Origin: Streptomyces agglomeratus
GTDB taxonomy: Bacteria; Actinomycetota; Actinomycetes; Streptomycetales; Streptomycetaceae
Direction: 5' to 3'
Assembly: GCF_001746415.1 (NCBI RefSeq)
Contig: NZ_MEHJ01000001.1
Span: forward strand, 620,001-684,000
DNA: 64,000 bases
The notes under the pieces were generated by a model. The model searched no databases, was not told the DNA's origin, and was given only the letters and a program-made list of their open reading frames with translations. The position numbers and the translations under genes are program-made. Shown piece after piece: positions 46,681 to 64,000 of the stretch (positions are counted from its first letter, which is position 1; every line of letters starts with the position of its first letter).

Positions 46681-47149
46681 GGAACCGTTCTGTGGTGATC
46701 AGGGGCCCGACCAGTATGAAGCCAAGGCCCTGGTTTGGAACTGAGAGCTCCCGAAGCTGCTGGATCAGCACCTTCCCACTGATGCCGGTGACCAGTCGCC
46801 CGGTCTCCCAGCAACCCCGCGGACCGCCGACGAGCGTCCGCATGACAACCCTCGCGGAACTCCTCCGCGGCTGAACCGGCCTCCCGGCCGGGACGGGCGG
46901 GCGCAGCCGTTGGATCACGCGACGGGCCTCACCTCTTCGCCCGCGCCAGGCGCACGACGCCAGCCGTGCCCACAGCCGGGGTGAGTGGTTCGGGCACCAG
47001 CGGTGATCACACACGAGGCCCCGGGCGACCCGACCACGGCATATGACAGCCTCCAACATTTCCTCGTTCCGACGATCTACTGTGCGGTCACCACGCCCGA
47101 TCACCGGGTGTGGTCATCACAGCCGCACCGACAACGACCTGGAGGAGAG
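46681..47149. other. intergenic region, no gene seen
   Basis: This divergent gap separates the hypothetical gene and the SH3-like gene. Frames on both strands lack family similarity or ribosome binding sites. Promoters for both genes are expected here. Confidence 0.4.
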
Positions 47150-47422
47150 ATGGCCAGTCCGCAGCAGCCATTCGGCACTGTCGTCAGCAGCATCGGCGTC
47201 AATCTGCGCAAGTACCCCAGCACTGATTCTGTGGTCACCGGAACACTCGAACACGGCACCAAGATCGGTCTGCGGAGCAAGGTCCGTGCCCAGGTCATCG
47301 ACGGCAACGGAATCTGGTACCTGCTGCGGGACAAGCCCGTCTGGGTTGCGGCGCGGCACGTCGAGAACACCGGACAGGTTCCCCTGTCCAAGGATGTGGA
47401 GCCTGCCCACCCAGTGGGCTGA
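47150..47422 (+). CDS. small SH3-like (SH3b) protein
   Basis: A 90-residue protein consisting of one bacterial SH3-type barrel: SSIGVNLRKYPSTDSVVTGT, LEHGTKIGLRSKV, GNGIWYLLRDKPVWVAARHV. GGAGGAG lies directly upstream of the ATG. No signal peptide is visible, unusual for SH3b modules, which mostly bind cell-wall material, so it may be a cytoplasmic partner or leave by another route. Confidence 0.75.
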   Translation: MASPQQPFGTVVSSIGVNLRKYPSTDSVVTGTLEHGTKIGLRSKVRAQVIDGNGIWYLLRDKPVWVAARHVENTGQVPLSKDVEPAHPVG

Positions 47423-47742
47423 CACATCCGAGGGGGCTTCGAGCCTCATGAGAACACCGAGCGCAGGACTCCTTCGGCTGTCGCAGGTGTCATCGCTGGC
47501 GACAAGCGCCCACGCGCCGTCACCTTCACGCCGGCGCAGGAGGTGTACGGCGACGACCGGGCAAGCACGCACTCGACAGGCACCGGTTGTGGTGCTGTGC
47601 GACCGGCGGGTGCGGGTGGTGGCGGGCTGGCCGTGGCCGAGGCCGGGCGTGCCGTCCTCGGCCGTCAGGATCCTGACAGTACGCCGCAGAGGCAACAACG
47701 GGACATCCCTGCCGATCGCTCGCCTACAGCCACACTGGAGCC
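47423..47742. other. intergenic region, no gene seen
   Basis: Nothing supported. It likely holds the promoter of the 88-residue gene at 47743. Confidence 0.4.
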
Positions 47743-48009
47743 ATGAGCAAGCACAGCTTCAGCATCGACCAGACCGGCACGGGCTGTACGCCGAGCCCTG
47801 CCCCCGGGTTCCAGTACCGCCACAACCTCCGCTACGAGAACCCGGCCGGTGGCGCCTGGACCAGCCCTGAGGGGCACACGCTGCGCACCACGTGCGGCCT
47901 CACCGTCGTGACCTGTGCCTGCGGCCTTGCCACCGAAGCACTGCCGAGTAACGATGCGCGGCTCGTCTACGAGGAACACCGCAACGCGATCCGCGACGAG
48001 ATGACATGA
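47743..48009 (+). CDS. small hypothetical protein (88 aa)
   Basis: An 88-residue soluble protein starting MSKHSFSIDQTGTGCTPSPA with four Cys (CTPSP, TTCGLTVVTCACGLATEA), a CxC plus one upstream Cys that could hold a metal or a disulfide. The C-terminus is a charged helix (LVYEEHRNAIRDEM). No family is recognised. Confidence 0.55.
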   Translation: MSKHSFSIDQTGTGCTPSPAPGFQYRHNLRYENPAGGAWTSPEGHTLRTTCGLTVVTCACGLATEALPSNDARLVYEEHRNAIRDEMT

Positions 48010-48380
48010 GCAACGGGCCCTGTCGCCGGCGTTGCCATGTCAGCGCAGGCCAGGCGGCAAGTGCTGCGGCACGGGGCCGCGGCGGTGATGTCGCCGCGAC
48101 CCCGTGCCGGTGATCCTCCCTCAGTCAAGGCATGTCTGGCGTACGGTCAGTGGTGCAGTCGTCGGGCCCGCCGACTGTCGGGCGGGCGGTGCCCGGCTCA
48201 CTCGACAGCCCTGCTCCGAGGGCAGCTGTAGCCGGCTGGTTGCCCCGTTGAACGCACTCACGCCGGCGCGCGGGACACAGCGGGAGGCACGCCGTCGGGA
48301 CAGCCCGCGCAATGTCCGCTACATGGTGGCACCGGGCCGCTACTCGTGACGTCGTACAGGTGTCGCCGACGATGACGGTG
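48010..48380. other. intergenic region, no gene seen
   Basis: A convergent gap between the 88-residue gene and the minus-strand secreted operon. No clear hairpin with a T-run was found. Confidence 0.4.
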
Positions 48381-48767
48381 TCAGGTTCGTATGCCGCCGA
48401 CATTCACCGGACAAGAGCGCTCGACGAGCTCTCCCACGCGGCGAGCCGCCTGATCGAACCGTTCCTCGTCCGCCGGGTGGGGATGCGCATACCAGTCCAG
48501 CACTGTGTCGAACGAAGGACGAAGCTCCTCAGGTGCGTCACGCGCAAGTTCGCTGATCACTTCCTGGCGGCCCGCAGGGGTGAGGGTTCGACTGTTTTGC
48601 AAGTCCATGGCGGTGGCCGTGGTGCAAAATTTCCTCTGCACTTCGGCGCTCTCGAACTGCGGATCCGAAGAATCGAACACGTAGAAAACAGCCGTGGCGG
48701 ATATTGCGGAAACAGCACAGGACGCGGCAAGCACGAATCGATTATTCATGACGTCAGACAGACTCAT
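48381..48767 (-). CDS. membrane-anchored hypothetical protein
   Basis: A 128-residue protein with one N-terminal membrane segment (FVLAASCAVSAISATAVFYV) and an extracytoplasmic, mostly helical domain containing two Cys (RKFCTTAT and ERSCPVN). Its start overlaps the end of the metzincin-like gene by 14 bp, so it is coupled to it and could be its inhibitor or anchor; that role is inference. Confidence 0.65.
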   Translation of the reverse strand: MSLSDVMNNRFVLAASCAVSAISATAVFYVFDSSDPQFESAEVQRKFCTTATAMDLQNSRTLTPAGRQEVISELARDAPEELRPSFDTVLDWYAHPHPADEERFDQAARRVGELVERSCPVNVGGIRT

Positions 48768-49278
48768 TAATGGCGCTTATGTCATGTGAGTCGTAGTTCA
48801 GATACCACTTGTCCGAACGCATACACGAATTGCCGTCCGTGTCGTTGGAAGAGTTACGGTGACCGATGTCCCCAGTGTGGCCGAACTCATGGCAGCCCAG
48901 ACTTTTCCACTGACTCGCCGTCTTGGAATAGCTTTGATTCAAGCGCACTCGAATGATGTCACAGGACGTTCGAAAGGCGTTCCAGTCGGTGCAGTCCGTC
49001 TTCCCGTGCCAGCCGTTACGTTCGTATTCACCATCGTAGACTTCAATGTCGCCACCGCCCCACGAGGTGGTAATTACAGTCTTCTCCAGCTGAGCCTTTC
49101 CATGGTTCATCGCCAGAGTCCCATTACCGGTCAATGAGAATCCCTTAACTGCTTGATTCCGGTTGTCAGGATCTATTCCACTGTCGTCGTGGTCAGCGTA
49201 ACCAGGCGTGGACAAGATCATGACCAACGCCATCGAAGCGAAGACGACAGTGGCCGGCCTGCTGGGAGAGCCATGCAT
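48754..49278 (-). CDS. secreted metzincin-like zinc protease
   Basis: A 174-residue exported protein. The signal peptide (PATVVFASMALVMILSTPGY) likely ends after GYA. The zinc site is HEFGHTGDIGH, with the three His at metzincin spacing, but the Gly of HEXXHXXGXXH is replaced by Asp. The following NSSNDTDGNSCM gives the Met-turn. Four Cys (KTDCTDW, TSCDIIRV, GCHEFG, NSCM) suggest two disulfides. Start: ATG at 49278. Downstream, a membrane-anchored protein overlaps its stop; upstream, a lipoprotein gene ends 49 bp away. Confidence 0.8.
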   Translation of the reverse strand: MHGSPSRPATVVFASMALVMILSTPGYADHDDSGIDPDNRNQAVKGFSLTGNGTLAMNHGKAQLEKTVITTSWGGGDIEVYDGEYERNGWHGKTDCTDWNAFRTSCDIIRVRLNQSYSKTASQWKSLGCHEFGHTGDIGHRNSSNDTDGNSCMRSDKWYLNYDSHDISAINESV

Positions 49279-49327
49279 GGAAGACTTCTTTCTGTGGGAG
49301 ACAGGCAATAACGCGGTCGCACCCGCT

Positions 49328-49993
49328 TCATTCCTTGGCATCGTCCGCAAGGGCGGCCGGCTCCTCGACACCCTTCAAGTCACCCGCTTCCACGGCTCTT
49401 GCGGCTTTCTGCACCTGCTTTTCCAGTTGCTGCGGCGTCAGCGACTCGATCCGCTCGCCGAGCTGATCGCCTTCGTTGGCAGCGGAATCGAGTTGTTGAC
49501 CGTCGACGAGTGCGCGCCCCTGGGAATTCACCAGCCTCCAATGGCCACGCTCCTCGGACTGCGTCAAGAAATATATGCCCTCATCACCTTTTGCTGTCCA
49601 GGTCACCCCCTCAAGCTGGTACCCACGCCCTTCCTCGTCCCAACCCCACTCGTCGACGAGCACCGTTTGCGGCTTTGTGGCTCTCGCACTGTGCAGGACT
49701 TCTTCTACGTGCAAGGTCACCTCGCGCACTTGCTCGCGGCCGCCATCTTCCTTCGATCCCACCCATCGCCCTGGCTGGACGTCCGTCACCTGCGCCTTGA
49801 CGACAAGGTCGGATGTAGCAGCCATCTTCTCCACATCGTCGAAGTGATGAACCTCCCGCCCCTCCACGATGCGCTCGGGCTGGGAATCGCGGGTATTTCC
49901 TCCCTCACCGCACGAGGCCGTCGAAAGACACAAGCCGACAGCGACCACAGCCACCCCGTACTTCCGCGGAAAAGCGGAACTGAAAATCTTCAT
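49328..49993 (-). CDS. lipoprotein of unknown function
   Basis: A 221-residue protein starting MKIFSSAFPRKYGVAVVAVG with GGGGGAC upstream. The signal ends in a lipobox-like STASC. The mature domain (ATSDLVVKAQVTDVQPGRW, EVTLHVEEVLHSARA, GDEGIYFLTQSEERGHWRLV) is beta-rich and ends in a charged helix (RIESLTPQQLEKQVQKAAR). No family is recognised. It is the first gene of an operon with the metzincin-like protease and the small membrane-anchored protein. Confidence 0.7.
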   Translation of the reverse strand: MKIFSSAFPRKYGVAVVAVGLCLSTASCGEGGNTRDSQPERIVEGREVHHFDDVEKMAATSDLVVKAQVTDVQPGRWVGSKEDGGREQVREVTLHVEEVLHSARATKPQTVLVDEWGWDEEGRGYQLEGVTWTAKGDEGIYFLTQSEERGHWRLVNSQGRALVDGQQLDSAANEGDQLGERIESLTPQQLEKQVQKAARAVEAGDLKGVEEPAALADDAKE

Positions 49994-50382
49994 ATGTCCC
50001 CCATAATTCAAACTGAAAGGAGAGTCGCGCGCCCCCTGCTTCATTGGACGCGCGACATGGTGTGCGACTCGAACGAACCGGACGCCCGCGTAGTGGAGGT
50101 GCCGCGCTCGCCACTGGGTCGGCACCTCGCCCACCGTCGGTCGTCAGCGCCGTCTTGTAAGCGGCGGTGTCCAGCCGGCCCGCACCGCCGCACCACCGGC
50201 CCCGCTCCGGCTGCCCGAGCGGCTGGGGGCTGGGTCATTGACGAGGTGTCCGGCCCACCCCCGGGCCGGACCCGTACCGCGCGTCATGGGCGGGGCGCAT
50301 CGCCCTCGCGGCACGCCGAAGCCGATGCCGTCTGCCTGGCCCTGCCCGCGAACCAACCCTGCACGCGAGGAGGGCTCCGCGG
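49994..50382. other. intergenic region, no gene seen
   Basis: Upstream of the lipoprotein operon; should contain its promoter. Open frames here look like shadows. Confidence 0.4.
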
Positions 50383-50562
50383 TCAGCGGCGTTTACGCCG
50401 TCCCCAAATCAGGTACGCTCCAACCGCAGCCAGCGCAGCGGAAAGCGCAGCCGTTCCGACCGATCCGTCGGCCTGCGATGTCCCGAATCCGTGGATCACC
50501 GTAAGGAAGGCGGCAAAGAGGCAGCTGCCTCCGAGGAACCGTTCCCAGGTTCGGACCGACAT
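50383..50562 (-). CDS. small membrane protein (59 aa)
   Basis: Start at the ATG at 50562 (MSVRTWERFLGG), preceded by GAGGGG. Two hydrophobic segments (GGSCLFAAFLTVIHGF and AALSAALAAVGAYLIWG) and a basic end GRRKRR are the layout of a small two-span membrane protein. It follows the lipoprotein gene at 50597 on the same strand by 34 bp and may belong to that operon. Confidence 0.6.
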   Translation of the reverse strand: MSVRTWERFLGGSCLFAAFLTVIHGFGTSQADGSVGTAALSAALAAVGAYLIWGRRKRR

Positions 50563-50596
50563 ATTTGCGCACCCCTCGTGCCGAGAACTCACGGTT

Positions 50597-52366
50597 CTAC
50601 CCCTTCAGCTTTTCTTTGAGGCCTTCGGAGCACGGAACGGTCGCTGTCTCCTCGGCGCGCAGGGCCGCGTACGTACCTAGACCGAGGCCCTCACCGGGGT
50701 CGCTGTCCGCGGCGAACGTGTCCAGCGCGACACCACGGGTTGCTTCCGCCTTTGTGTTCTTGGAACACGACAGCTCTGCGATGCTCCATGCTTTCACAGC
50801 CCGTGCCGTGGGATTGCTAGCCGTCTTCTCCCCTGCCAACTGCTCCAGGAAAGCTTGGGATTCCAGGGCTGTTTCCTTCTGGAATCCTTCACATTCCGTG
50901 GTGGTGGTCCACAGCAGTGTCATCCAGGCCTTCACTGCGTCGCTGCCTTGCGCATACCGCCCTGTGGCCCGCGCCAACGCGTCTTTGAGCTGGGGCAGGT
51001 CGTGGTCAAGTACTGCACATGGCTGGTCTGTCCGCAGCAGTGCCAGCGTCGCAGATGTCGTCACCGTGATCCGGTCGAGGGGGTCCTTCGTCCGCTTCAA
51101 GGCAGCCTCTGCGCTGCTCCGCACATCCTGCGGCCCCAGCGGTTCGCCGGCTCTGAGGGACGCCTGCAGATAGAAGCGCACCTGCTCTCGCAGTGGCGCC
51201 TTGGACGCTGGTTTCCGGACGTCACCGAGGGCGGCGGACGCTCCGGTCAGTTGCGCCTGCGCGACGGTCGCGAGGTAACCGTCGATGGCCGAGTTCTGGT
51301 CCGGTTGATCCGGGATCCGGCCACGGAGCAGGGCAATGTTCTGCATCGCGCGGACAGTCGCGTCCGCCACATCGATGGATGACCGGCCAGGCAGTGACGC
51401 GAGAGTCGTGGACGCGGCGGACAACTCGGTCACGGAAGCCGATATGTTCCGGTAGTACGGACCGTCGCCGGCAAGTGCGTCCCGCAGCGCGTCCTGGGCT
51501 CGCTGCCTCACAGCCCGGATGTCGGCGCTGTTCTGACGCTTGTCCGATTGTGCCGCGATCGATACTTGCAGGAGGAGGACGGATTCCGGCACGGACCATG
51601 CTTCGTCGCTTCCTGCCAGCCTTGAGATTTCCCCTCTGACGACGTCGCCCGTCTTGGCACTCACAGTGCACGCGTATCCCTGCGCCGACAATGTGCGTGC
51701 AGCGACGTAGTCCGACAGCGCATCACTTGTACTCGTCGCCCGGCATGGCTGGGTCCGCGTGTCCAGATGCTGCTTCACCAGGTTCCGCACCTGCTCGGCC
51801 GTCTGTCCCAACTGTGCGTTGCCGGAGTCGCCTCGGTGCACCTCTTCGGCCATCCGCGCTACGGCCTCCACCTCCGGAAGGGGCTGGGGGCGCCGGAACA
51901 GGGCTCGCACAGCAGTGGTCGCCGCGGTGTGGACGCGGCCCGGCGGAAGCTGACCGGGGAACGCCCGCACACCGGTCCGCAGGTGCTGGATGCGCAGGGC
52001 GGCGTCGCCTTCGTGCGTGGTGAGAACCCGGTCCGACCACCAGCCGGCGTGCTCGGCGAGGTGGGCGTCCGCGGCGGACTCGCCGGTGTCGCGAAGTACC
52101 GCCAACGCTGCCGCTGTCCGGTGCGGGTCTTCGCCGGTCAGCGGAACAGTGGTCATGCCGGACGGGCTGTCGGTGAAAGTCGCTGCCAGCCGGGCCTCCA
52201 CCGCTGCGGGAGCCCGCACACGGGGCCCGATGCGCAGACCTTCGTCCTCTGAAGAGGGTGGTGCCTGACAGCCCACCAGGCCGAGGGCTGTGGCCAGCAA
52301 AGCGACGTAGATGCGGCGCCGGGGGGCGGAGGCGGACCTCCGCCCCCCGGTGGTCGAAGACGACAT
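50597..52366 (-). CDS. large helical lipoprotein of unknown function
   Basis: A 589-residue protein with a basic N-terminus, a hydrophobic stretch and the lipobox LGLVGC near residue 33. The rest is almost entirely helical with many Ala/Arg/Leu, resembling tandem alpha-solenoid helices (HTAATTAVRALFRRPQPLPE, AIDGYLATVAQAQLTG). Six Cys occur in the mature part. It starts 3 nt after the stop of the upstream secreted-protein gene and is co-translated with it. No family is recognised; a surface scaffold or partner of the beta-rich protein is plausible. Confidence 0.7.
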   Translation of the reverse strand: MSSSTTGGRRSASAPRRRIYVALLATALGLVGCQAPPSSEDEGLRIGPRVRAPAAVEARLAATFTDSPSGMTTVPLTGEDPHRTAAALAVLRDTGESAADAHLAEHAGWWSDRVLTTHEGDAALRIQHLRTGVRAFPGQLPPGRVHTAATTAVRALFRRPQPLPEVEAVARMAEEVHRGDSGNAQLGQTAEQVRNLVKQHLDTRTQPCRATSTSDALSDYVAARTLSAQGYACTVSAKTGDVVRGEISRLAGSDEAWSVPESVLLLQVSIAAQSDKRQNSADIRAVRQRAQDALRDALAGDGPYYRNISASVTELSAASTTLASLPGRSSIDVADATVRAMQNIALLRGRIPDQPDQNSAIDGYLATVAQAQLTGASAALGDVRKPASKAPLREQVRFYLQASLRAGEPLGPQDVRSSAEAALKRTKDPLDRITVTTSATLALLRTDQPCAVLDHDLPQLKDALARATGRYAQGSDAVKAWMTLLWTTTTECEGFQKETALESQAFLEQLAGEKTASNPTARAVKAWSIAELSCSKNTKAEATRGVALDTFAADSDPGEGLGLGTYAALRAEETATVPCSEGLKEKLKG

Positions 52367-52369
52367 GCG

Positions 52370-52927
52370 TCAGACAGTCCCGCCTACTGGGCTGGAGCGC
52401 CGGAAGGCACTCACGTCGTAGTGAGTGTTGCCGTACTTCATGCTGGCGGTGACCGTGTGGGACACCCAGATCCATCGCCCGTAGGGGTTGCCTCGGCCGA
52501 TGACCCTCCCATGGTCCGCGACCACGCTGGAGTTTCTGTCGCCTGCGTAGACCCCGCCGCCGCAGTCGTCCTCGCCGCCGATGCCGCCCGGCGACAAGCC
52601 GCCGCCACCGACGCTCACGCTGCCTATGCCGTACTTGTTGAAGCAGATACCGTCGCTGAGCTTGATGGTGTAATTGGACACCGGCCCGGCGGCGTTCCTC
52701 TTCCACGAGGCGGAGATCTTGGACGAGTCAAGCGTCCACGTCCTCTGCCCCGCGCCACGCCAGGTGTCCTTGAAGCCCACCTTCAGCGTGCCGATACTCA
52801 CCCGGCGGGTGTTCGACTTGCTGTTCTCGATGGCTGCCGCCGGCAACACACTCGCCGCGAACACCGCCGAGGCAACGGCCCCGAGCACGACAGCGCGTGC
52901 AGCGGTCCGTCCCTGATTATTCCTCAC
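52370..52927 (-). CDS. secreted beta-rich protein
   Basis: A 185-residue exported protein. Start GTG at 52927 (GGGGGAA upstream). The signal peptide (AVVLGAVASAVFAASVLPAA) ends near AAA-IE. The mature part is beta-rich with a glycine-rich loop (GSVSVGGGGLSPGGIGGEDD) and two Cys (GICFNKYG, EDDCGGG). No family is recognised. It is coupled to the large lipoprotein. Confidence 0.7.
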   Translation of the reverse strand: MRNNQGRTAARAVVLGAVASAVFAASVLPAAAIENSKSNTRRVSIGTLKVGFKDTWRGAGQRTWTLDSSKISASWKRNAAGPVSNYTIKLSDGICFNKYGIGSVSVGGGGLSPGGIGGEDDCGGGVYAGDRNSSVVADHGRVIGRGNPYGRWIWVSHTVTASMKYGNTHYDVSAFRRSSPVGGTV

Positions 52928-53574
52928 GGAAATTCCCCCATTTATTTTTCGTCGCCCGGGCGCAGGCATGCGAAGGCCGCTCCACCCGTAACGAAAGTCG
53001 ACAGATCGGTCAGGAAGGTGTGGAGATTCCCCTGACGGCGTCTGCCGCTGGCGGTCACCCAACAATCGCCCCTGGTCAGGGGGCAGTTCGCGGTGGGCGA
53101 CCTTGGATCCGAGTATGTCCGTCGTGATCTGGTCACCGCAACGTTATTGAGCAACACATGAGGTTGTTCAACTGCGTGAGATTTCAACGACCCGAAGCCG
53201 GTTCCTTAATCAGTCCCTACCCGTTCGTGGCCGGACACCGTCGACGACACATCGGGGGTCCATGCCCATGGCGAGGCGCTGACGCAACGGGGGCCATAGC
53301 GGGCGGAAGGAGTAGTTCCGACCACAGATGGCCTCGGATGGCACTTTCGGACAGAACACAAGGTGAGTGTTCGCACACGTGATCGGCCGGTCCCGTTCAG
53401 TGACCGGCGCCTGGATCCCTGCCCCGGCTTGCAGCACAACACCCGCGATTCATGCGCCGGCCAGCCGAACCTGTCGAAAAATTTCCTGATCCGATGCCGG
53501 AACACCGAAGGAAATGACCGAAAGCGCTCATCTGCTTTTGACTCATGAGCGGATGTCCGGTGAAGGTCCTTCAC
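52928..53574. other. divergent intergenic region before the NRPS locus
   Basis: It separates the secreted-protein operon from the exporter of the NRPS cluster, so it should carry two promoters. The only notable structure is the inverted repeat at 53147-53171. No gene is supported. Confidence 0.45.
53147..53171. promoter_or_regulatory. inverted repeat upstream of the NRPS cluster
   Basis: TTGAGCAAC and GTTGTTCAA are 9-bp arms with one mismatch and a 7-bp spacer. It may be a regulator site for the cluster or the divergent operon. Confidence 0.4.
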
Positions 53575-54885
53575 ATGCCCGCCACATCCCGAGCCGTGAA
53601 CAGCGGCCCCCTGCGTATGCGCGACTTCCGCCTGCTGCTCGCCGGAGCGGCGGCCGGACAGTTCGGCGCCCACGTCACCCTGGTCGCCCTGCCCCTTGTG
53701 GCCGTGCTCGAACTGGAAGCGACCGCCTTCCAGGTGGGGCTGCTCACGGCTGCAGAGACCGCCGCGTTCCTGGTCATCGGCCTGCCGGCCGGAGCATGGG
53801 TCGACCGCATGCGGAAGTTGCCGCTGATGATCCGGGCCGATGTCGTACGAGCCGTGGCCATGGCAAGCGTCCCGGCAGCGGGCGTGGCCGGTGTCCTGAC
53901 GATGGTGCAGCTGTACGTTGTCGCTCTGGTCACCGGCGTCGCCACCGTCTTCTTCGACGTGGCCCACCAGAGCTTTCTGCCCCAGTTGCTGCCCCGGGAC
54001 CAACTGGTCAAGGGGAACGGGGCGCTGGAGACCGTACGCTCGTCCGCGCAGGTGACCGGCCCCGGGCTCGGTGGCGGTCTGGTGCAGCTCCTCGGTGCCC
54101 ATCTCGCCGTGGTCGCCGACGCCATCGGTTACGTCCTCTCCGCGCTCTTCCTCTGGCGCATCAAGCGGCCGGAGCCCCGCCCCGAGGCTGTCCCCGGCGC
54201 GTCGCTGCGCGCGGACATCGCGGAAGGGCTGCGCTTCGTTCTGGGTCAGCCGCTGCTGCGGGTGATCGCCGCCGCCACAGCCCTCGGCAACTTCTTCACC
54301 GCGCTGTTGCTGGCCACTCAGACGGTTTTCCTCGTCCGTGACCTGGGCCTGCAACCGGGGGCGGTCGGCCTCGTCCTGTCGGCCGCGGCCGTCGGCGGGC
54401 TCTTGGGCGCACTGGTCGCGGGCACCCTGGCCGCACAACTGGGCCACGCCCGGATCATCTGGCTCTCCGCACTGGTGACAGGCCCGTTCGCCCTGCTGTG
54501 GCCGCTGTCCGAGCAGGCGGGAGGAGCAGTGGTGTTCGCGCTCGGCTCGGGCATCGTCTTCTTCGGTGCCGTGGTCTACAACGTCGCCCAGGTGAGCTTC
54601 CGCCAGTCCCTGTGTCCGCCCGGCCTGCTCGGCCGCATGAACGCCACCTTGCGCTTCCTGATGTGGGGCACGCTCCCGCTCGGGGCACTGGCCGGCGGGG
54701 CGCTCGCCGACGGCTTCGGCGCCCGCACCGCGCTGGTGTGCTGCGCGGCCGGTTTCCTCGCCGTACCTCTGCCGCTGCTGCTCTCCCCACTGCGCGGGAT
54801 GCGGGACCTGCCCAATGTGCCCGTGCACCCCGAGTCCACCGCCGCGGGCACTGACGAACGGGCTCCGGCCACCCCTCTCGCCTGA
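53575..54885 (+). CDS. MFS exporter of the NRPS cluster (EntS-like)
   Basis: A 436-residue major-facilitator protein with about twelve membrane segments, of the MFS_3/EntS group that exports enterobactin-like siderophores and other peptides. Features include the loop GLPAGAWVDRMRKLPLMIRA between helices 2 and 3 and PQLLPRDQLVKGNGALE in the centre. The ATG at 53575 has GAAGG at good spacing; the ATG at 53545 lacks one. The free-standing C-domain gene follows by 46 bp on the same strand, so it probably exports the cluster product. Confidence 0.88.
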   Translation: MPATSRAVNSGPLRMRDFRLLLAGAAAGQFGAHVTLVALPLVAVLELEATAFQVGLLTAAETAAFLVIGLPAGAWVDRMRKLPLMIRADVVRAVAMASVPAAGVAGVLTMVQLYVVALVTGVATVFFDVAHQSFLPQLLPRDQLVKGNGALETVRSSAQVTGPGLGGGLVQLLGAHLAVVADAIGYVLSALFLWRIKRPEPRPEAVPGASLRADIAEGLRFVLGQPLLRVIAAATALGNFFTALLLATQTVFLVRDLGLQPGAVGLVLSAAAVGGLLGALVAGTLAAQLGHARIIWLSALVTGPFALLWPLSEQAGGAVVFALGSGIVFFGAVVYNVAQVSFRQSLCPPGLLGRMNATLRFLMWGTLPLGALAGGALADGFGARTALVCCAAGFLAVPLPLLLSPLRGMRDLPNVPVHPESTAAGTDERAPATPLA

Positions 54886-54931
54886 CCCCGGCCCGCGTCC
54901 GCCGCCGTAGACACCCGACAGGAAGGACCCC

Positions 54932-56299
54932 GTGCTCAGCATCACGAGCCAGTACCTGGCTCGCTACCGGAATCTCGTCACCGGGGCCGGAGCCTCTGCC
55001 CCGCTGCCCGTCACCGGAGCCCAGCGCCGCTTCATCCTGGTGCGGTCCCTCGACCCCACCGGGCGGCCGGACCTCGTGCCGATGTTCTTCGCCTTCCCGC
55101 GCGGCACGGTGGACGTCGTACGCCTCGCCGCTGCGGCGAATCGCCTGGCGGCACTGCACCCGGTGCTCCGTGGCCGGCCCGGCGTGGTGCGCGGCACCCC
55201 TGTGCTGTGCCTGGAGCAGCCGGAGGTGCCGGTCGTGCGCGTACCCCGAGCGCCCGACGAGGACGCCGGCGCGGCCCTGCGCCGCGCCCTGGGAGCCTGG
55301 GCCCCCGACGGGCCGCCCCTGCGGCTGTTCCTCACCGATGACGCGTCGGAGCGCGGGCCCGCCCGGTACGGGGAGTCCGCCCCGCACGGTCGCGGCGACG
55401 CCCGGGAGGTGCTCGCGATCGTCCTCGACCACACCGCGTGCGACGGCGGGTCACTGGCCCGGATCGTCGGGGAACTGGGCGCCGCTTACGCGGAGGGGCA
55501 CCGGGCGGAGTTACCCGCGCCCGCCGACACAGCCGCCGAACTGGCCGCCTACCGCGACGCCGTGCTGCTCCAGCTCGATGCCGAGGAACGGGCTGCCTCA
55601 CCCGAGGCACTGGCGTACTGGGGCGCCCGGCTGCGAGCCGTCCGCGACCGGGCCCCCGCGCCGCGGCCGGGTGCCCCGGTGGCCGGAACGCTGCCGAGCG
55701 GTTCGGCTTCCGCGATCCTGCCCTCCCCCGCCGCCGGCGTGCCCTTCCCGGAACTGCTCGACGCCTGCCGCGCGGCCGCGCGCGTCCTGTACGGACCCGG
55801 TCACGTGGTGCCGCTCGGCTACCCGTGGGGCGGCCGTCCGCCCGGCGCGGAGCGGGTGCTGGGCTGCTTCCTCAACACGGTGGTCTTCCCGGCCGCCACC
55901 GGGCCCGCCCCTTTGGGCGCGGAGGTTACCGCCGATGCCTGGTGGGACGACCTGGACCGGGCCGACGTCCCCTTCGACGCCGTCGCGCACGCGGCCCGGG
56001 AGGCCGGGTCCGGCTGGTCCGGCCGACTCGACGGGCTTTTGACCGTCGACGACAGCAGGCTGCGGCCCGTGCTCCGCCTGGCCGGTGTCGAGGGCCTGGA
56101 GGTGTACGTCGACGGCAGACCCGTGCGCGGACCCTTCGCGGTCTCCGTCACCCAGGGACGCGAACTGCACGTGCGCATGGGGTGGGACCGCGCCGTGCTG
56201 GACGACCACACCGCCCGGGACGCCTTCGACGCGCTCGCCGGCGCACTCGGGGCCGCGGCCCGGACGGCGCCGGCTGCCGACCGGTGCCCCTCCGCCTGA
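54932..56299 (+). CDS. free-standing condensation-domain protein
   Basis: A 455-residue protein corresponding to one NRPS condensation domain and nothing else. The N-lobe starts LPVTGAQRRFILVRSLDPTG; the active-site motif reads DHTACDG near residue 169, keeping the catalytic second His and the Asp-Gly but with Asp for the first His; the C-lobe has LGCFLNTVVFPA, like the FVNTLPL segment. It could act in trans between the carrier proteins of the neighbouring A-T proteins, release the product, or acylate it. Start: GTG at 54932 with GGAAGG upstream. Codon 194 is TTA (55511-55513), making it bldA-dependent. Confidence 0.85.
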   Translation: MLSITSQYLARYRNLVTGAGASAPLPVTGAQRRFILVRSLDPTGRPDLVPMFFAFPRGTVDVVRLAAAANRLAALHPVLRGRPGVVRGTPVLCLEQPEVPVVRVPRAPDEDAGAALRRALGAWAPDGPPLRLFLTDDASERGPARYGESAPHGRGDAREVLAIVLDHTACDGGSLARIVGELGAAYAEGHRAELPAPADTAAELAAYRDAVLLQLDAEERAASPEALAYWGARLRAVRDRAPAPRPGAPVAGTLPSGSASAILPSPAAGVPFPELLDACRAAARVLYGPGHVVPLGYPWGGRPPGAERVLGCFLNTVVFPAATGPAPLGAEVTADAWWDDLDRADVPFDAVAHAAREAGSGWSGRLDGLLTVDDSRLRPVLRLAGVEGLEVYVDGRPVRGPFAVSVTQGRELHVRMGWDRAVLDDHTARDAFDALAGALGAAARTAPAADRCPSA

Positions 56300-56300
56300 C

Positions 56301-56460
56301 CGTCCCGCACCACCCCAACGGCCCGGACCGTCCGTGCCACCCATCGGCCTTGCCCGTCCGTGCCACCCATCGGCCCGGCTCGTCCGCACCACCCCAACGA
56401 CCGGCCCGTCCCCACCAACCCATCGGCCCGGCCCGTCCGCGCGATCCGCGGCCGGACCGC
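56301..56460. repeat. 26-bp imperfect tandem repeat before the C-A-T gene
   Basis: Five to six units beginning CGTCC at 56301, 56329, 56355, 56381, 56407 and 56434, of 26-28 bp, with the core CGTCCGTGCCACCCATCGGC. They fill most of the 225-bp gap between the free C protein and the C-A-T gene. Unit lengths are not multiples of three and the units are not part of either protein. Confidence 0.8.
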
Positions 56461-56524
56461 ACCACGCCCGGGCACGACCGTGCCCGGCACACCATCACCC
56501 GACCCGACAACCCCAGGGATCATC

Positions 56525-59500
56525 ATGCTTCCGCTCTCCTCCTCGCAGGAGATCGTCTGGCTGCACGAACAAGTGCAACCCGGCAGCCGTGCCTACAACT
56601 TCACCGCGGCGCTCGACCTGTGGGGCCCGCTGGACATCGACGCCCTCGGCCACGGCCTCGCGGCCACGCTCGACCGGCACGCGGGCCTCCGCCTGGAACT
56701 GGTCGCCGTCAGCGGCGCGATGCCCGGCCAGCAGGTGGCCGAGGGCTGCGCGCCCCGGCTGCGCACGGTCGACCTCACCACGGAGCCGCACCCCGAGGCC
56801 GCTTTCCAGGAGCTGCTGCGTACGGAGGCGGAGACCCCGCTCGACACGTACGAAGCACCGTTGCTGCGCTGGACACTGGTGCGGCTCGCGGACCAGCACC
56901 ACCGGCTCGTCCACGTCGAGCACCACCTGATCCACGACGGCCACTCGTTCGCGATCCTGCTCAACGACGTGTTCACCGTCTACCGGGGTCACGTCCTGGG
57001 CGAGCCGGCCGTACTGCCGCCGGCGTCCTCCTACGCCGACCACGTCGACGCGCAGGCGCGCGGCGGGGACGACGGGGCGCGGCGTTCCGGCCTGGACTTC
57101 TGGACCGCCGAACTGGCCGGGCTGTCCTACGACATGCCACTGCCGGGCCTGTCCCGGCCCGGTGCCCGGCGCCGCCACCACGGCGGCCAGATGCGGCAGA
57201 CGGTCGGCGCGGATCTGGCGGAACGCCTGCGCGAACACGCACGCCTGCGCGGCCTGACGCCGTTCTCCACCCTCCTCGGCCTCTTCGCCGAACTGCTGCG
57301 CCGCCACGGCGGCCGCTCGCAGCTGGTCGTCGGCACCGCGGTCGGCAACCGGCCCCGCGGGCACGAGGAGACCGTCGGCATGTTCGTCAACACCATCCCT
57401 CTGCCGCTGCGGCTGGACCCGGCCGCCCCGGCCGAGGAGACGATGGACGAGGTGACCGACGTCCTCATCCGCGCGCTGCCGCATCAGGACGTGCCGGTCC
57501 AGGAGCTGACCCGCGCCCTCGGGCTGCACACGTCGGGGGCCGACAACCCGCTGTTCGACGTGATGTTCAGCGCTCATGACGCCGCGCTGCCCGAGATCGA
57601 CGTACCCGGTCTGGACATCACCCTGTTCGAGGGGTTCAACACCGGTACCACCAGGTTCGATCTGGACGTCGTGTTGCTGCCCGACGACCGTCGCGGCGTC
57701 GGCCCGCGGCACGGCGCCGCCGGCATGACCCTGGTCTGGGACTACGACGCCGACATGTTCGGCGAGGAAGTGGTGCGGCTGCTCGCCGGCCGGTTCCTGG
57801 ACCTCCTGCGGGCCTACCTCGACGCCCCGGGCACCACCCTGGCCGACCTGGCGCTCCCCGGGCCAGTCGCACAGCGGTCCCCCGAGCCCGTCGCCGGGCA
57901 GACCCCCGGCGCGCCCGCCGCCGAACCGGCCCTTCTCACCCACGCCCCCGGGGCCGGCCCGCTCGACTCGCTCACCGCGCACGACGCGTCCCTCCCGGCG
58001 ATGCTCATCGGCGCCCGGCGCCTCACGTACGGCGATCTGGAGGCCAGGGTCACCGCCCTCGCCGAGCGACTGCTCGCGGCCGGGGTGACCGCCGGTCAGC
58101 CCGTGGCGGCCGTCCTGCCGCGCGGCGCCGACGCGGTCGTCACACTGCTCGCCTGCCTCCGCACCGGGGCGGTCCACTGCCCGCTGTCGCCATCGGATCC
58201 GCCGGCCCGGCTTGACCTGCTGCTGCGCCGTCTGGAACCGGCCCTCGTCCTCACCTCGGCCGAGCACCCCGTGGCGGTCCCCGACGGTATGCCGACCGCC
58301 ACGGTGGACGCACCGGAGCTGCCGAAGGCGCACGCCGCCCACGCGGTCCCGGGCGCCGCGTACATCATCCACACCTCCGGATCGACCGGCACGCCCAAGC
58401 CCGTCGCCGTCGGCCGCACGGCACTGGCGAACCATCTGACCGGGGTGGCCGACCGGTTCGGCTTGCGTCACGGCGACCGGGTGCTGCTGTTCGCCCAGCC
58501 GTCGTTCGACGTGGCCCTGGAAGAGGTGCTGCCCTCCCTGTACGCGGGGGCGTGCCTCGTCGTACCCGAGCGCGAGGTCCTCACCGGCAGCGAACTGACC
58601 GAGCTGCTGACCGAAGCCCGTGTCACCGTGGTCAACCTCCCGACCAGCTACTTCCTCGCCACCCGGGAGGAGTTGCGGCCCGCCCTCCGGGACGGCCGGT
58701 GGGCGCCGCGGCTGGTGGTGCTCGGTGGTGAGCGCCTCCCGGCCGACGTGCTGCGCGCCTTCCTGGTGGACACCGGCGCCGTGGTGCTCAACGCCTACGG
58801 CGTCACCGAAGCCGCCATCAGCTCCACCGTCCACCGCATCACCGCCGGCGACCTGGCCGACGGGGCGGAGGTCCCGCTCGGGACCGAACTGCCCGGTGAG
58901 CGAGTCCACATCCTCGACGAGCACCGCCGCCCCCTGCCGGACGGCGCGGTGGGTGAGCTCGCGATCGCCGGGGCGGGGCTTGCCGAGGGTTACGTCGGCA
59001 ACCCGGAGGCCACGGCCGCGCGGTTCGTGCACCTTGACGCGCTCGGCGGTGAACGGGTCTACCTGACCGGCGACGTGGGCTACCGGGGCCTGGACGGGCT
59101 GCTGTACTTCCTCGGCCGCCGGGACAACCAGGTCAAGCTGCGCGGTTACCGGATCGAGCTGGAGGAGGTCGAGGCGGCCGCCTCGGCCGCGCTCGGCGGC
59201 CGTTCCTGTGCCGTCGTCCTGAACACCGACGCCACGGGCGGACCCCGGCTGGTCGGGTTCCTGGAGTGTCCCGACGAGGGCGGGGCGTGGGACGAACGGG
59301 CGTTGCACGCGGAGCTCGGCCGACGGTTGCCGGCCGCCCTCGTACCGGGGCGTTGGGTGCGCCTCGACGCGATGCCCACGCTGGCGGGCGGTAAGCCGGA
59401 CCGCACGGCACTCGCACGCAGGGCGGCGGAGCCCGGCCCGGCAGGCGCCGCGCACCCGTCGGGCCATGAGGACGCGGGCGGCTGCGCGCGTCTGCCCGGC

Positions 59501-59809
59501 TCGGGCGACAGGGTGGCGCGAAGCGGCGAGGACCGCACAGTTGGGACGCCGGCCGACCCGATGACCGTGCTGCTGGCCGACGGCTGGCGTGAAGTCCTGG
59601 GGCACGACCGCTTCGACGGGACCACCGACTTCTTCGGGGCCGGCGGCCACTCCCTGCTCGCCGCGCAGTTGGCGGCCTGGCTGGAGCCCCGGCTCGGACA
59701 CCGTCCGCCGATGCGGCTCTTCTTCCGTAACCCCGTTCTCGCCGACCAGGCCGGAGCACTCGCCGCCACCGCCAATGCCACCGCCACCGCCACTTCGACG
59801 GAGTCGTGA
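56525..59809 (+). CDS. NRPS module, C-A-T
   Basis: A 1094-residue synthetase with condensation (about 1-440), adenylation (about 480-970) and carrier (about 1015-1085) domains. The C motif is HHLIHDG at 133. Adenylation core motifs: A3 TSGSTGTPKP near 616, A5 NAYGVTEAA, A7 YLTGDVGYR, A8 NQVKLRGYRIELEEVE, A10 GGKPDR (usually NGKVDR). The carrier attachment Ser is in GGHSLL near 1043. By alignment to PheA the specificity code reads D-V-E-N-V-G-A-I-S-K, near the codes of N-hydroxyornithine domains as I recall them, which is weak evidence. The start is ATG at 56525; the frame is open through the upstream repeats. No tailoring domain is present. Confidence 0.93.
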   Translation: MLPLSSSQEIVWLHEQVQPGSRAYNFTAALDLWGPLDIDALGHGLAATLDRHAGLRLELVAVSGAMPGQQVAEGCAPRLRTVDLTTEPHPEAAFQELLRTEAETPLDTYEAPLLRWTLVRLADQHHRLVHVEHHLIHDGHSFAILLNDVFTVYRGHVLGEPAVLPPASSYADHVDAQARGGDDGARRSGLDFWTAELAGLSYDMPLPGLSRPGARRRHHGGQMRQTVGADLAERLREHARLRGLTPFSTLLGLFAELLRRHGGRSQLVVGTAVGNRPRGHEETVGMFVNTIPLPLRLDPAAPAEETMDEVTDVLIRALPHQDVPVQELTRALGLHTSGADNPLFDVMFSAHDAALPEIDVPGLDITLFEGFNTGTTRFDLDVVLLPDDRRGVGPRHGAAGMTLVWDYDADMFGEEVVRLLAGRFLDLLRAYLDAPGTTLADLALPGPVAQRSPEPVAGQTPGAPAAEPALLTHAPGAGPLDSLTAHDASLPAMLIGARRLTYGDLEARVTALAERLLAAGVTAGQPVAAVLPRGADAVVTLLACLRTGAVHCPLSPSDPPARLDLLLRRLEPALVLTSAEHPVAVPDGMPTATVDAPELPKAHAAHAVPGAAYIIHTSGSTGTPKPVAVGRTALANHLTGVADRFGLRHGDRVLLFAQPSFDVALEEVLPSLYAGACLVVPEREVLTGSELTELLTEARVTVVNLPTSYFLATREELRPALRDGRWAPRLVVLGGERLPADVLRAFLVDTGAVVLNAYGVTEAAISSTVHRITAGDLADGAEVPLGTELPGERVHILDEHRRPLPDGAVGELAIAGAGLAEGYVGNPEATAARFVHLDALGGERVYLTGDVGYRGLDGLLYFLGRRDNQVKLRGYRIELEEVEAAASAALGGRSCAVVLNTDATGGPRLVGFLECPDEGGAWDERALHAELGRRLPAALVPGRWVRLDAMPTLAGGKPDRTALARRAAEPGPAGAAHPSGHEDAGGCARLPGSGDRVARSGEDRTVGTPADPMTVLLADGWREVLGHDRFDGTTDFFGAGGHSLLAAQLAAWLEPRLGHRPPMRLFFRNPVLADQAGALAATANATATATSTES

Positions 59810-59811
59810 CC

Positions 59812-61746
59812 ATGCAGCCGACAACCTTCCCGTCCGACACGCCGACCACCGGTCCCGCCCGAAGGGTTCCGGACGGCCTTCCGGACGGCGCTCCGCTGAG
59901 TGTCGTCCAGGGCGCCGCGACCCCCGGTGACGGGACGGCCGGGGTGCTCGCCCTGTTCGAGACCTGGGTACGCCGCACCCCGGCCGCACCCGCCGTGATC
60001 GACGGCGATCACACCTGCACGTACCGGCAGCTCGATGCCGCCGCCGACCAGGTCGTGACCGTCCTGCGCGACCGGGTGGGGGCGGGCGACCTGGTCGGTG
60101 TCTGCCTGGACCGCTCCGCCGCGCTCGTCGTGACGGCCGTGGCGATCGCCAGGATCGGCGCGGTGTACCTGCCGCTGGGGCCGCGCCCCGGTGAGCGCCG
60201 CCTCGGCGCCGTCACGGAGGACCTGGACGTCGTCTGCCTGATCGGTGACGCCGCTGTGCTCCCTCCCCGGCACCGGGCCGCCGAGCACATCCGCCTGCCA
60301 CTGCCGGGCGAAGGCGCCAACGCGGCCGACGCCGTGGTGGCGGCCTTCGCCCCACCGCCCCCCGGCGCTCTGCGCGCACCTCGCGAAGCGTTCTACGCCG
60401 TGCTGACGTCCGGCTCCACGGGCCGGCCCAAGGCGGTCGTCGTCGCCGAGCCGGCCCTCGGCACGGTGCTCGACTGGTACCGCGCGGAAACGGGACTCGC
60501 GCCCGGTGACCGACAGTCCCTGCTCATCGGCGTCGCTTTCGACCCGCACTTGCTGGAGCTGTGGGCCGGGCTGACCTCGGGCGCTGCCCTCGTGCCCGCG
60601 CCGGACGACGTCCGCTGGGACACCGGACTGCTCACCTCGTGGTGGCGCGAGGCCGCCATATCCGTGGCGGTCGCCGCCACTCCCACGGTCGAGCCGATGC
60701 TGGAGCAGCCCTGGCCGCAGGACCTGGTTCTGCGCCATCTCGTCGTCGGCGGCGACCGCATGCGCCGCCGTCCGGGCGCCGACGTGACCGCGACCGTCCA
60801 CAACGCCTACGGCCCCGCGGAAGCCACCGTCGTCACCACCACCCACGCCATGCGCGCTGCGGACGCCGACGCGGAGGGCCCCGGCGCTCCGCCGATCGGA
60901 GTCCCCCTGCCGGGGGTGACCGTGGTCGTCACCGGCGCCGACGGCCGGCCCGTGGCACGGGGCGAGGAGGGCGAACTCCGTATCGGCGGCAGCGCCCTGG
61001 CGCTCGGGTACCTGGACCCGGAGCTGACCGCTTCCCGCTTCACCGACCCCGCGCCCGGCGTCGTACTTCCAGGAGTGGGCCGGCTGTACCGCACCGGCGA
61101 CCGGGTACGGATGCGGCAGGACGGGCCGCTGGAGTTCCTCGGCCGTCTCGACGACCAGGTGAAGATCAGTGGCGTACGGATCGAGCCCGCCGAGGTCGAG
61201 GCCGCACTGGAGCGGGACCCGGCCGTCCGCGGCGCCGTCGTCACCGCGCCGCGCACCCCCGACGGCCGGACGCGCCTGGTGGCGTACGTACGACTCGTAC
61301 CCGGTGCCGCGGCCTCCGGCGAAGCGCTGCTGACAGCGGTGCGGGCGTGGCTGCCCGAACAGGCCGTGCCGTCGGCCGTACGGCTCGTCGACTCCTTCCC
61401 GCTGGACGCCAACGGCAAGGTCGACCGGGCAGAACTGACACAGGAAGCGACCGCCCCGGGCGCGGCCGGCGCACCGGATGCCGGTGCACCGGCCTCCGCG
61501 ACCCCCGGCGAGCGGCTCGTGCTCGCCGCCGTACGCGACCTTCTCGCGCGGCCCACGACCGTACTGTCCGACAACTTCACGGAGGTGGGCGGCACTTCGA
61601 TTGTCGCGGCCCGGCTGCTGACCGTCATCGAACGGGAAGGCGGCGTACGTCTGCGTGCGCCGGAACTCCTGCGCCAGCCGGACCTGCGGGCCGTCGCCGC
61701 CCTCGTCGACCGCCGCCGCGAGGCGGCACAGGGAGCGGGTGCCTGA
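59812..61746 (+). CDS. NRPS A-T protein (no C domain)
   Basis: A 644-residue adenylation-carrier didomain. A3 is TSGSTGRPKA near 200, A4 AFDPHLLELW, A5 NAYGPAEATV, A7 LYRTGDRVRM, A8 DQVKISGVRIEPAEVE, A10 DANGKVDR; the carrier site is EVGGTSIV with Ser near 595. The code reads D-P-L-A-V-G-A-V-V-K, which I do not recognise. ATG at 59812 is 2 bp after the upstream stop; GTG at 59806 overlaps that stop and is also possible. It lacks a condensation domain, so it must hand its amino acid to a C domain on another protein. Confidence 0.93.
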   Translation: MQPTTFPSDTPTTGPARRVPDGLPDGAPLSVVQGAATPGDGTAGVLALFETWVRRTPAAPAVIDGDHTCTYRQLDAAADQVVTVLRDRVGAGDLVGVCLDRSAALVVTAVAIARIGAVYLPLGPRPGERRLGAVTEDLDVVCLIGDAAVLPPRHRAAEHIRLPLPGEGANAADAVVAAFAPPPPGALRAPREAFYAVLTSGSTGRPKAVVVAEPALGTVLDWYRAETGLAPGDRQSLLIGVAFDPHLLELWAGLTSGAALVPAPDDVRWDTGLLTSWWREAAISVAVAATPTVEPMLEQPWPQDLVLRHLVVGGDRMRRRPGADVTATVHNAYGPAEATVVTTTHAMRAADADAEGPGAPPIGVPLPGVTVVVTGADGRPVARGEEGELRIGGSALALGYLDPELTASRFTDPAPGVVLPGVGRLYRTGDRVRMRQDGPLEFLGRLDDQVKISGVRIEPAEVEAALERDPAVRGAVVTAPRTPDGRTRLVAYVRLVPGAAASGEALLTAVRAWLPEQAVPSAVRLVDSFPLDANGKVDRAELTQEATAPGAAGAPDAGAPASATPGERLVLAAVRDLLARPTTVLSDNFTEVGGTSIVAARLLTVIEREGGVRLRAPELLRQPDLRAVAALVDRRREAAQGAGA

Positions 61747-61747
61747 G

Positions 61748-63631
61748 ATGACCGCCCTCACCACCCGCACCGACACCGCCTCGAAGGAAGAACCTGTGCC
61801 GACCGAACGCACCCAGGCCGCCCCCGACAGTCCCCGGCCGCCGTTCGCTGCCGGGCTGCCCGCCCTCGTGGCGTGGCACGCCGAACGCACCCCGCACGCC
61901 CTGGCCGTGGCCGATGGAGACACCACCCTCACCTACGCCGGCCTCGTCTCCTGGGCCCGGGCTCTCGCCGCCCATCTGCACGAGCACGGTGTCCGGCCGG
62001 GTGACCGCGTGGCGCTGCTCATGCCGCGCTCCGCGCGCACCGTCGTCGCGACGCTCGCCCTGTGGTGGGCGGGCGCCACCTGCGTACCGCTCGATCCGGC
62101 GCACCCCCGCCCGCGTTCCGAGGCGATGGCCGCCGACGCAGGCGTGACGCTGACCGTCGGTGACGGCAAGCTCCTCGAATCGGTGGCCCTCACCGGCCCG
62201 TCCCTCGCGCTCCCCGCGGAGGAGCCGCTGTCCGGCTCCCGGGCGGCCGCACCCGAACCGGGGCCCGGCGCGGCGGCGTTCATCATGTTCACCTCCGGCT
62301 CGACCGGACGCCCCAAGGGTGTCTGTGTGCCGCACCGGGCCGTCGCCGAGCTGTTGTCCGAGCCGGCGTACGTCACCCTCACCACGCGGGACCGGGTGCT
62401 CTTCCACTCCCCCATGACCTTCGACGCGTCGACGTTCGAGGTGTGGGCAGCCCTCGCCAACGGCGCCGCCGTGGTGGTGTGCACCGTCGAACGGCCCTCT
62501 TTCGAGGACCTGGCCCAGCAGGTGGAACGCCACGGCGCGACCGTCGCCTTCTTCACCACCGCCCTCTTCCACCGGCTCGCCGCCCGCCGCTCCCGGGTGT
62601 TCTCCCTGCTCCGCACAGTCGTGGTGGGCGGGGAAGCGCTGTCCGCCGAGCACGCCCGGCGGGTTCTGCGCGCGTTCCCCTGGCTGGAACTGGTCAATGG
62701 CTACGGCCCCACGGAGACGACCACGTTCGCCACCGCGCACCGGGTCACCGATGCGGACTGCGACGGCCACGTGCCGATCGGCCGGCCCATCGCGGGCGCG
62801 ACCGCGCACGTCCTGGACGGCACCGGGCGGCGGCCCGTCCCCGACGGCGGGCGGGGCGAGCTGTGGATCGGGGGCAGCCGGTTGGCACACGGCTACACCG
62901 GCCTCCCCGAGCTCACCGCCGAACGCTTCGTCGACCACCCCGAGCTGGGCCGTCTGTACCGCACCGGCGACCTCGTCTCCGTCCGTCCGGACGGCAACCT
63001 GGACTTCCACGGCCGGACCGACGACCAGGTGAAGGTGCGGGGCTTCCGCGTCGAACCGGGGGAAGTAGAGCACGCCCTGCGCCGGCAGCCCGACGTGGAC
63101 GACGCCGCCGTCACGGTGCTCCGGCCCACCCCCGACGACGCCCGGCTCGTCGCCTACGTCGTGGCGGCCCCCGGTCCCGTGCCCCGGTCCGGCGTGCTGC
63201 GTGACCGTCTCGCCGCGACCCTGCCCGCGCACCTGGTCCCCGACGAGGTGACGATCGTCGGCCGGCTGCCGCTGACCCCTTCCGGGAAGGTCGACCGCCG
63301 GGCTCTGGCCGCTCTCGGAACCGGGGACGGGGACGCGACCCCGGCCGCGCCGCTGACGCCGTTGCAGCAGGCGGTCGCGGACATATGGAGCCGCGCACTG
63401 GGGCGCGAGGTCACCCAGCCGGACGCCGACTTCCTGGCCCTGGGCGGTCACTCCCTGCTGGCTCTCGTCGTCACCGACGACCTGCGCGAGGAGCTGGGCG
63501 TCGACGTGCCACTCGCCGGCTTCTTCGCCGCCCCGACGGTGGCCGGCCAGGCCGCCCTGGTCGAGCAGGCCCTGCTCGACGCCCACAGCGATCTGCGCCC
63601 GAGCGCCCAGGAGGACACCGATGACCAGTGA
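61748..63631 (+). CDS. NRPS A-T protein (no C domain), valine-like code
   Basis: A 627-residue adenylation-carrier didomain. A3 is TSGSTGRPKG near 181, A4 TFDASTFEVW, A5 NGYGPTETTT, A7 LYRTGDLVSV, A8 DQVKVRGFRVEPGEVE, A10 PSGKVDR; the carrier site is LGGHSLL near 568. The code D-A-F-F-V-G-G-T-F-K is two changes from the valine code DAFWIGGTFK of gramicidin/tyrocidine, so a branched aliphatic residue is likely. ATG at 61748 is 1 bp after the previous stop, but GTG at 61796 has the better GGAAGAA ribosome binding site. The next gene's ATG overlaps its stop by 11 bp. Confidence 0.93.
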   Translation: MTALTTRTDTASKEEPVPTERTQAAPDSPRPPFAAGLPALVAWHAERTPHALAVADGDTTLTYAGLVSWARALAAHLHEHGVRPGDRVALLMPRSARTVVATLALWWAGATCVPLDPAHPRPRSEAMAADAGVTLTVGDGKLLESVALTGPSLALPAEEPLSGSRAAAPEPGPGAAAFIMFTSGSTGRPKGVCVPHRAVAELLSEPAYVTLTTRDRVLFHSPMTFDASTFEVWAALANGAAVVVCTVERPSFEDLAQQVERHGATVAFFTTALFHRLAARRSRVFSLLRTVVVGGEALSAEHARRVLRAFPWLELVNGYGPTETTTFATAHRVTDADCDGHVPIGRPIAGATAHVLDGTGRRPVPDGGRGELWIGGSRLAHGYTGLPELTAERFVDHPELGRLYRTGDLVSVRPDGNLDFHGRTDDQVKVRGFRVEPGEVEHALRRQPDVDDAAVTVLRPTPDDARLVAYVVAAPGPVPRSGVLRDRLAATLPAHLVPDEVTIVGRLPLTPSGKVDRRALAALGTGDGDATPAAPLTPLQQAVADIWSRALGREVTQPDADFLALGGHSLLALVVTDDLREELGVDVPLAGFFAAPTVAGQAALVEQALLDAHSDLRPSAQEDTDDQ

Positions 63632-64000
63632 CACCCCGCGGGCCACGGCCCCGGACCTCCAGGAGGAACTGCTGCGCCGGGCGCGGGCACGCGCCGCGGG
63701 CCGTTCCACCGCGCCCTGGCCGACGGGCCACCGGAGCCAGGGCCCCGCGCCGCTGTCCCACGCCCAGCGCCGCATGTGGCTCATGGACCGGCTCGGCCAC
63801 GCCGACGCCTCGTACAGCGTGCCCTTCGCCACCCGGCTGCGCGGCCGCCTGGACATCGACGCCCTGCGCACCGCGCTGACCGCCCTCGTACGCCGCCACG
63901 AGATCCTGCGCACCCGGTACGGGCAGCGGGACGGGGAGCCCTTCCAGGAAGCCCTTCCGGCGCCCGACGCGATCGAGGTTCGCATGGTGGAGGCAGACCC
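63621..64000 (+). CDS. NRPS, N-terminal condensation domain (partial)
   Basis: Cut by the right edge. The first 126 residues contain a linker of about 45 residues and the start of a condensation domain: PLSHAQRRMWLMDRLG, SYSVPFATRLRGRLDIDALR, LVRRHEILRTRYG. This is the LCL/dual type opening of an elongation module. Its ATG lies inside the end of the preceding A-T gene (overlap 11 bp), so it is translationally coupled and the cluster continues beyond the window. Confidence 0.9.
   Translation, partial: MTSDTPRATAPDLQEELLRRARARAAGRSTAPWPTGHRSQGPAPLSHAQRRMWLMDRLGHADASYSVPFATRLRGRLDIDALRTALTALVRRHEILRTRYGQRDGEPFQEALPAPDAIEVRMVEAD

Follow-up and report, generated by a model that had tools for sequence, protein, structure and literature searches.

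Among the closest described systems is the omicsynin cluster omn of Streptomyces sp. 1647, for which the available text of PMC12783407 assigns the Arg module to OmnB and the A domain for the variable penultimate residue to OmnE, and reports that, once the R domain had been deleted, no omicsynins were made and carboxylic acid forms remained. The chymostatin cluster of Streptomyces mobaraensis, with its conserved terminal R domain, and the deimino-antipain cluster are named there as homologous to omn (PMC12783407); the deimino-antipain/antipain cluster is MIBiG entry BGC0002051, as stated in the available part of PMC10548850.

We assign the split NRPS locus described here to this antipain/chymostatin/omicsynin family, with a probability of about 0.92; its product would be a tetrapeptide aldehyde with a ureido link, acting as an inhibitor of serine and cysteine proteases.

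Gene row, terminal gene and flanking DNA

The window, i.e., the whole stretch of 64,000 nucleotides that was analysed, corresponds to bases 620001-684000 of the largest contig of a 9.1 Mb genome. According to Pfam and the table of open reading frames (ORFs), the row on its + strand opens with an MFS exporter, followed by a lone, divergent C protein, then a C-A-T protein and a pair of A-T proteins, and closes with the first part of a C gene. The same row had been put forward in a sequence-only reading of the window, and Pfam together with profile comparison showed it to be real:

53545..54885, + strand: MFS exporter, 446 aa (Pfam MFS_1 4.2e-28, MFS_3 2.7e-26)
54932..56299, + strand: free-standing divergent C protein, 455 aa, motif VLDHTACDG (profile comparison, motif, tree)
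56360..59809, + strand: C-A-T protein, 1149 aa from GTG (Pfam; EHHLIHDG; A-domain letters DVENVGAIS)
59806..61746, + strand: A-T protein 1, 646 aa, T motif GGTSI, proposed ureido starter (Pfam)
61655..63631, + strand: A-T protein 2, 658 aa from GTG 61655, with ATG 61748 as alternative; letters DAFFVGGTF (Pfam)
63621..64000, continuing to L009:14566 in the contig extension, + strand: start of the terminal gene (981 aa), C domain (Pfam, contig extension)

The “dense overlaps” of the sequence-only reading are found in part of this row only: by the ORF table, the C-A-T gene overlaps that of A-T protein 1 by 4 nt and the gene of A-T protein 2 overlaps the terminal gene by 11 nt, whereas gaps of 46 nt and of at least 60 nt lie between exporter and lone C and between lone C and C-A-T, respectively. 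Between the two A-T genes, a start at GTG 61655 gives an overlap of 92 nt, and a start at ATG 61748 gives none. As the C domain of the C-A-T protein begins at residue 56, its true start may be later, for example at the Met at 56525. NCBIfam at its own cut-offs recognised nothing but the amino-acid adenylation domain, and did so in two of the three A domains; the genome holds two MbtH genes, neither of them near the cluster.

One has to look beyond the window edge for the gene that decides the product class. The terminal gene (L009:11621-14566) encodes a 981 aa protein composed of a C domain (residues 40-470), an A-domain remnant (about 490-575), a T domain (587-650) and an SDR-type R domain running from about residue 676 to the end. 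The remnant matches the AMP-binding C-terminal subdomain at 496-564 (E 2.9e-7), the large A core being missing, and the R domain measures about 306 residues, in line with the published feature of about 300 residues. It contains TGGSGGVG at residue 681 and YGRAKLDCE at residue 801, which correspond to TGxxGxxG and YxxxKxxxE, the extended-SDR motifs reported for the omicsynin-type R domain in the available text of PMC12783407. Its A-less C-T-reductase module, which determines the class of product, was out of sight for the sequence-only reading. Among related terminal proteins, the R-domain and T motifs are found in 36-39 of 46 rows, the fetched DNA stopping in or before R in many of them.

To the right, a SpoIIE-type phosphatase gene (L009:15985-17139) is followed by a − strand Mce/MlaD gene set, so that the cluster seems to end after the terminal gene. 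On the left, GC content is 59-68% at window positions 47000-53999, against 72-78% in the cluster from 54000; the frames tried in this segment gave no Pfam or NCBIfam match above cut-off, and it is possibly a foreign stretch. A DUF4277/DDE transposase gene lies at window positions 42075-43616.

Conservation of the row and the lone C protein

A search of 295 genomes of the same genus with the lone C protein returned matches at E 1e-8 or better in 83 of them; identity reached at least 50% in 31 genomes (our own included), the remainder being matches of about 30% to ordinary C domains. Exporter, lone C and C-A-T adjoin in 28 of the 29 foreign loci from this search, and the last one is cut by a contig end. 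A second search provided 50 fetched loci, 49 of which belong to Streptomyces or Kitasatospora and the last to Chitinophaga. In 46 of these, the six genes run in the same order and on the same strand, and in all 46 the MFS exporter adjoins the lone C; among the exceptions, L056, L078 and L088 are cut by contig ends, while the Chitinophaga locus, L090, is a distant match with another order. The gene set is widespread in Streptomyces, and Pfam and the kept order confirm that the NRPS line is split into separate polypeptides, as first proposed from the sequence.

The locus of S. noursei B-3066 (L043), which we take to be the deimino-antipain strain, is collinear with ours, its proteins being 77-88% identical to their counterparts here where the two were compared. 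The lone C of Streptomyces sp. HMX112 is 78% identical to that of the window, and this strain has a region tabled as “Antipain, High” (PMC12982422, in the available part of that paper).

Assigning the lone C itself to a family is not an easy task. Neither Pfam nor NCBIfam gives a confident assignment, the Pfam Condensation match staying under the cut-off (E 0.0026, 17 bits vs. 30.6), and a PDB sequence search yielded weak matches only (best E 0.00035). Profile comparison with the C domains of the terminal genes aligned 388 columns with 98.2% probability (E 3.2e-14). The first His of the active site is replaced by Asp in VLDHTACDG; the second His, correctly called as kept in the sequence-only reading, and the Asp are both present, and H167, C170 and D171 are invariant among 26 aligned relatives. 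The lone Cs of L078, L079, L081, L082, L084, L086 and L087 carry DHxxCDE instead of DHxxCDG; four of these seven loci have a putative cyclase gene (see below), L081 and L082 lack it in the fetched DNA, and L078 is cut off.

We then consider the C-domain tree, built from ten lone C, ten C-A-T and ten terminal C domains together with eight C domains of our own genome (8 of its 33 matches). Lone C (support 100/100), C-A-T (100/100) and terminal C domains (99/98) form separate clades, and the three C domains of the window each pair with their L043 counterparts, a pattern suggestive of genes that move as a set. The lone C had been expected to cluster with trans-acting or terminating C domains; instead it falls in its own clade, in a tree that holds no labelled trans-acting references and for which the program gave long-branch warnings. 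With a lone C branch length of 2.14 and these warnings, any place given to it among C-domain types is tentative.

Predicted product and alternative readings

The assignment to the antipain family is based on the terminal C-T-R gene, the EHHxxHDG signature, the extended-SDR motifs, the collinearity in 46 of the 50 loci and the “Antipain, High” region of HMX112. Among C domains in MIBiG, EHHxxHDG is reported from ureido-forming ones only; it occurs as EHHLIHDG in the C domain of our C-A-T protein and in 47 of 48 C-A-T rows, the single row without it being probably the distant Chitinophaga locus. This signature leads us to read A-T protein 1 as the ureido starter.

The positions of the A-domain letters follow GrsA numbering rather than an alignment to a solved structure. 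By this numbering, DVENVGAIS of the C-A-T protein is presumably Arg-like and DAFFVGGTF of A-T protein 2 presumably Val/Leu/Ile-like, whereas DPLVAVGAVV of A-T protein 1 (ten letters, one position doubtful) gave no assignment and is unlike the common codes for Phe. Compared with L043, two letters differ, and both belong to the C-A-T protein.

Gene content, motifs and the kept gene order come from the sequences themselves; the chemistry, the order of steps and the residue identities proposed here are drawn by analogy with the published family. A-T protein 1 would load the starter, an aromatic residue and, by analogy, Phe; the C domain of the C-A-T protein would link the amines of starter and Arg through a carbonyl, forming the ureido bridge. 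The lone C, acting in trans, would then join the ureido-Arg unit to the branched aliphatic third residue held on A-T protein 2, and the C domain of the terminal protein would join this chain to the residue on its own T. As the terminal protein has no working A domain, its T would have to receive its residue in trans, with the Arg and the starter A domains as candidates; both this step and that of the lone C are deduced from the domain count. Release as an aldehyde would fall to the SDR-type R domain, and export to the MFS protein. The likely product would be aromatic-CO-Arg-Val/Leu/Ile-X aldehyde.

The requirement for a C domain in trans, proposed earlier for both A-T proteins, probably holds for one of them only: A-T protein 1 is best read as ureido starter through EHHxxHDG, and the lone C is the likely trans supplier for A-T protein 2. 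The branched aliphatic residue foreseen in the sequence-only reading is likely as well, and its statement that the order of the product cannot be read from the gene order is borne out or likely.

Of the alternatives, the one given most weight, though very unlikely and in the end rejected, is a capreomycidine subtype resembling chymostatin or omicsynin, in which the Arg on the C-A-T protein would be cyclised before condensation. Capreomycidine is present in both of these products (PMC12783407, available text), and five of the 50 loci (L079, L084, L086, L087 and L088) have, between C-A-T and the first A-T gene, an acyl-CoA-dehydrogenase-type gene that is probably the arginine cyclase (OmnC/AnpI) making capreomycidine. 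However, neither the window nor the adjoining 26 kb on its right side holds an ortholog of this putative cyclase, and the genome as a whole yields at best a match of 39% identity, against 79-90% among the five loci; furthermore, the lone C has DHxxCDG here, whereas the four aligned lone Cs of cyclase loci (L079, L084, L086 and L087) all have DHxxCDE. With the putative cyclase gene absent, plain Arg is expected at position two, as in antipain.

Still less probable is a new split NRPS of unknown product whose lone C serves both A-T proteins. The layout is indeed the one described from the sequence, and the lone C is very divergent; against this stand the ureido signature, the A-less terminal R module and the existence of a published family (PMC12783407, as far as its available text goes), as well as the frequency of the layout, given lone C matches at 50% identity or more in 31 of 295 genomes. 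A lone C serving both A-T proteins was itself rejected, the ureido signature of the C-A-T protein making A-T protein 1 a starter. That assembly errors or decay have broken larger C-A-T genes into the A-T frames seen here has a negligible probability: nothing was found in its support, and with the same separate frames in the same order in 46 of 50 loci, the split layout cannot be put down to faulty assembly.

The A-domain remnant and comparison with described clusters

The remnant in the terminal protein is conserved among the relatives compared. Of 47 terminal rows, a count that includes the window and leaves out the wrongly assigned L088, 43 cover at least 95% of it; the other four (L064, L079, L084 and L087) break off where the fetched DNA does. 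None of the 44 rows with a letter at the A10 column has the lysine, three more having a gap. Pairwise dN/dS against nine chosen relatives was 0.18-0.40 for the remnant, 0.25-0.52 for C, 0.15-0.40 for T and 0.15-0.28 for part of R, rough values since synonymous distances climb as high as 0.67; the low values for the remnant point to constraint on a segment that is unable to activate an amino acid. Its role could be that of a linker, or of a docking site used by a foreign A domain. We tentatively suggest, as a possibility we rate below even odds, that a family-wide dead A-sub, devoid of A core and A10 lysine and kept by purifying selection, could be a docking platform for the trans-charging of the terminal T. 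Such a platform would help to explain why the fourth residue differs among family members, and would offer a handle on A-domain sharing between discrete NRPS proteins, a question also posed by capreomycin. A limited literature search that took in the available text of PMC12783407 found no published description of a remnant in the terminal module.

For capreomycin, the available text of PMC12400406 describes CmnI, a module devoid of its A domain that depends on CmnA-A1 for charging in trans, as proposed here for the terminal T; unlike our locus, it belongs to another product class and has no reductase, and that text mentions no A-sub remnant. Chymostatin contains capreomycidine (PMC12783407, available text), while an ortholog of the putative cyclase is missing here.

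The omn cluster, like our locus, has five discrete NRPS genes with three A domains and a terminal SDR-type R domain, and its Arg module and variable branched aliphatic penultimate residue have presumable counterparts here, a likeness based on the published description of genes and domains (PMC12783407, available text). Unlike our locus, omn has the arginine cyclase gene omnC; it also has the TetR regulator gene omnR and the classical SDR gene omnG (PMC12783407, same text), and no TetR or SDR family match was obtained in the subset of flanking frames that was scanned. A described cluster of the same architecture was to count against the sequence-only reading, and the omicsynin, deimino-antipain and chymostatin family is such a case as far as the published description of its genes and domains goes (PMC12783407, available text). 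Both the cluster type and its odd split layout are already known, as they fit the published description of the family: a layout resembling broken NRPS logic is the normal form of widespread, described protease-inhibitor clusters.
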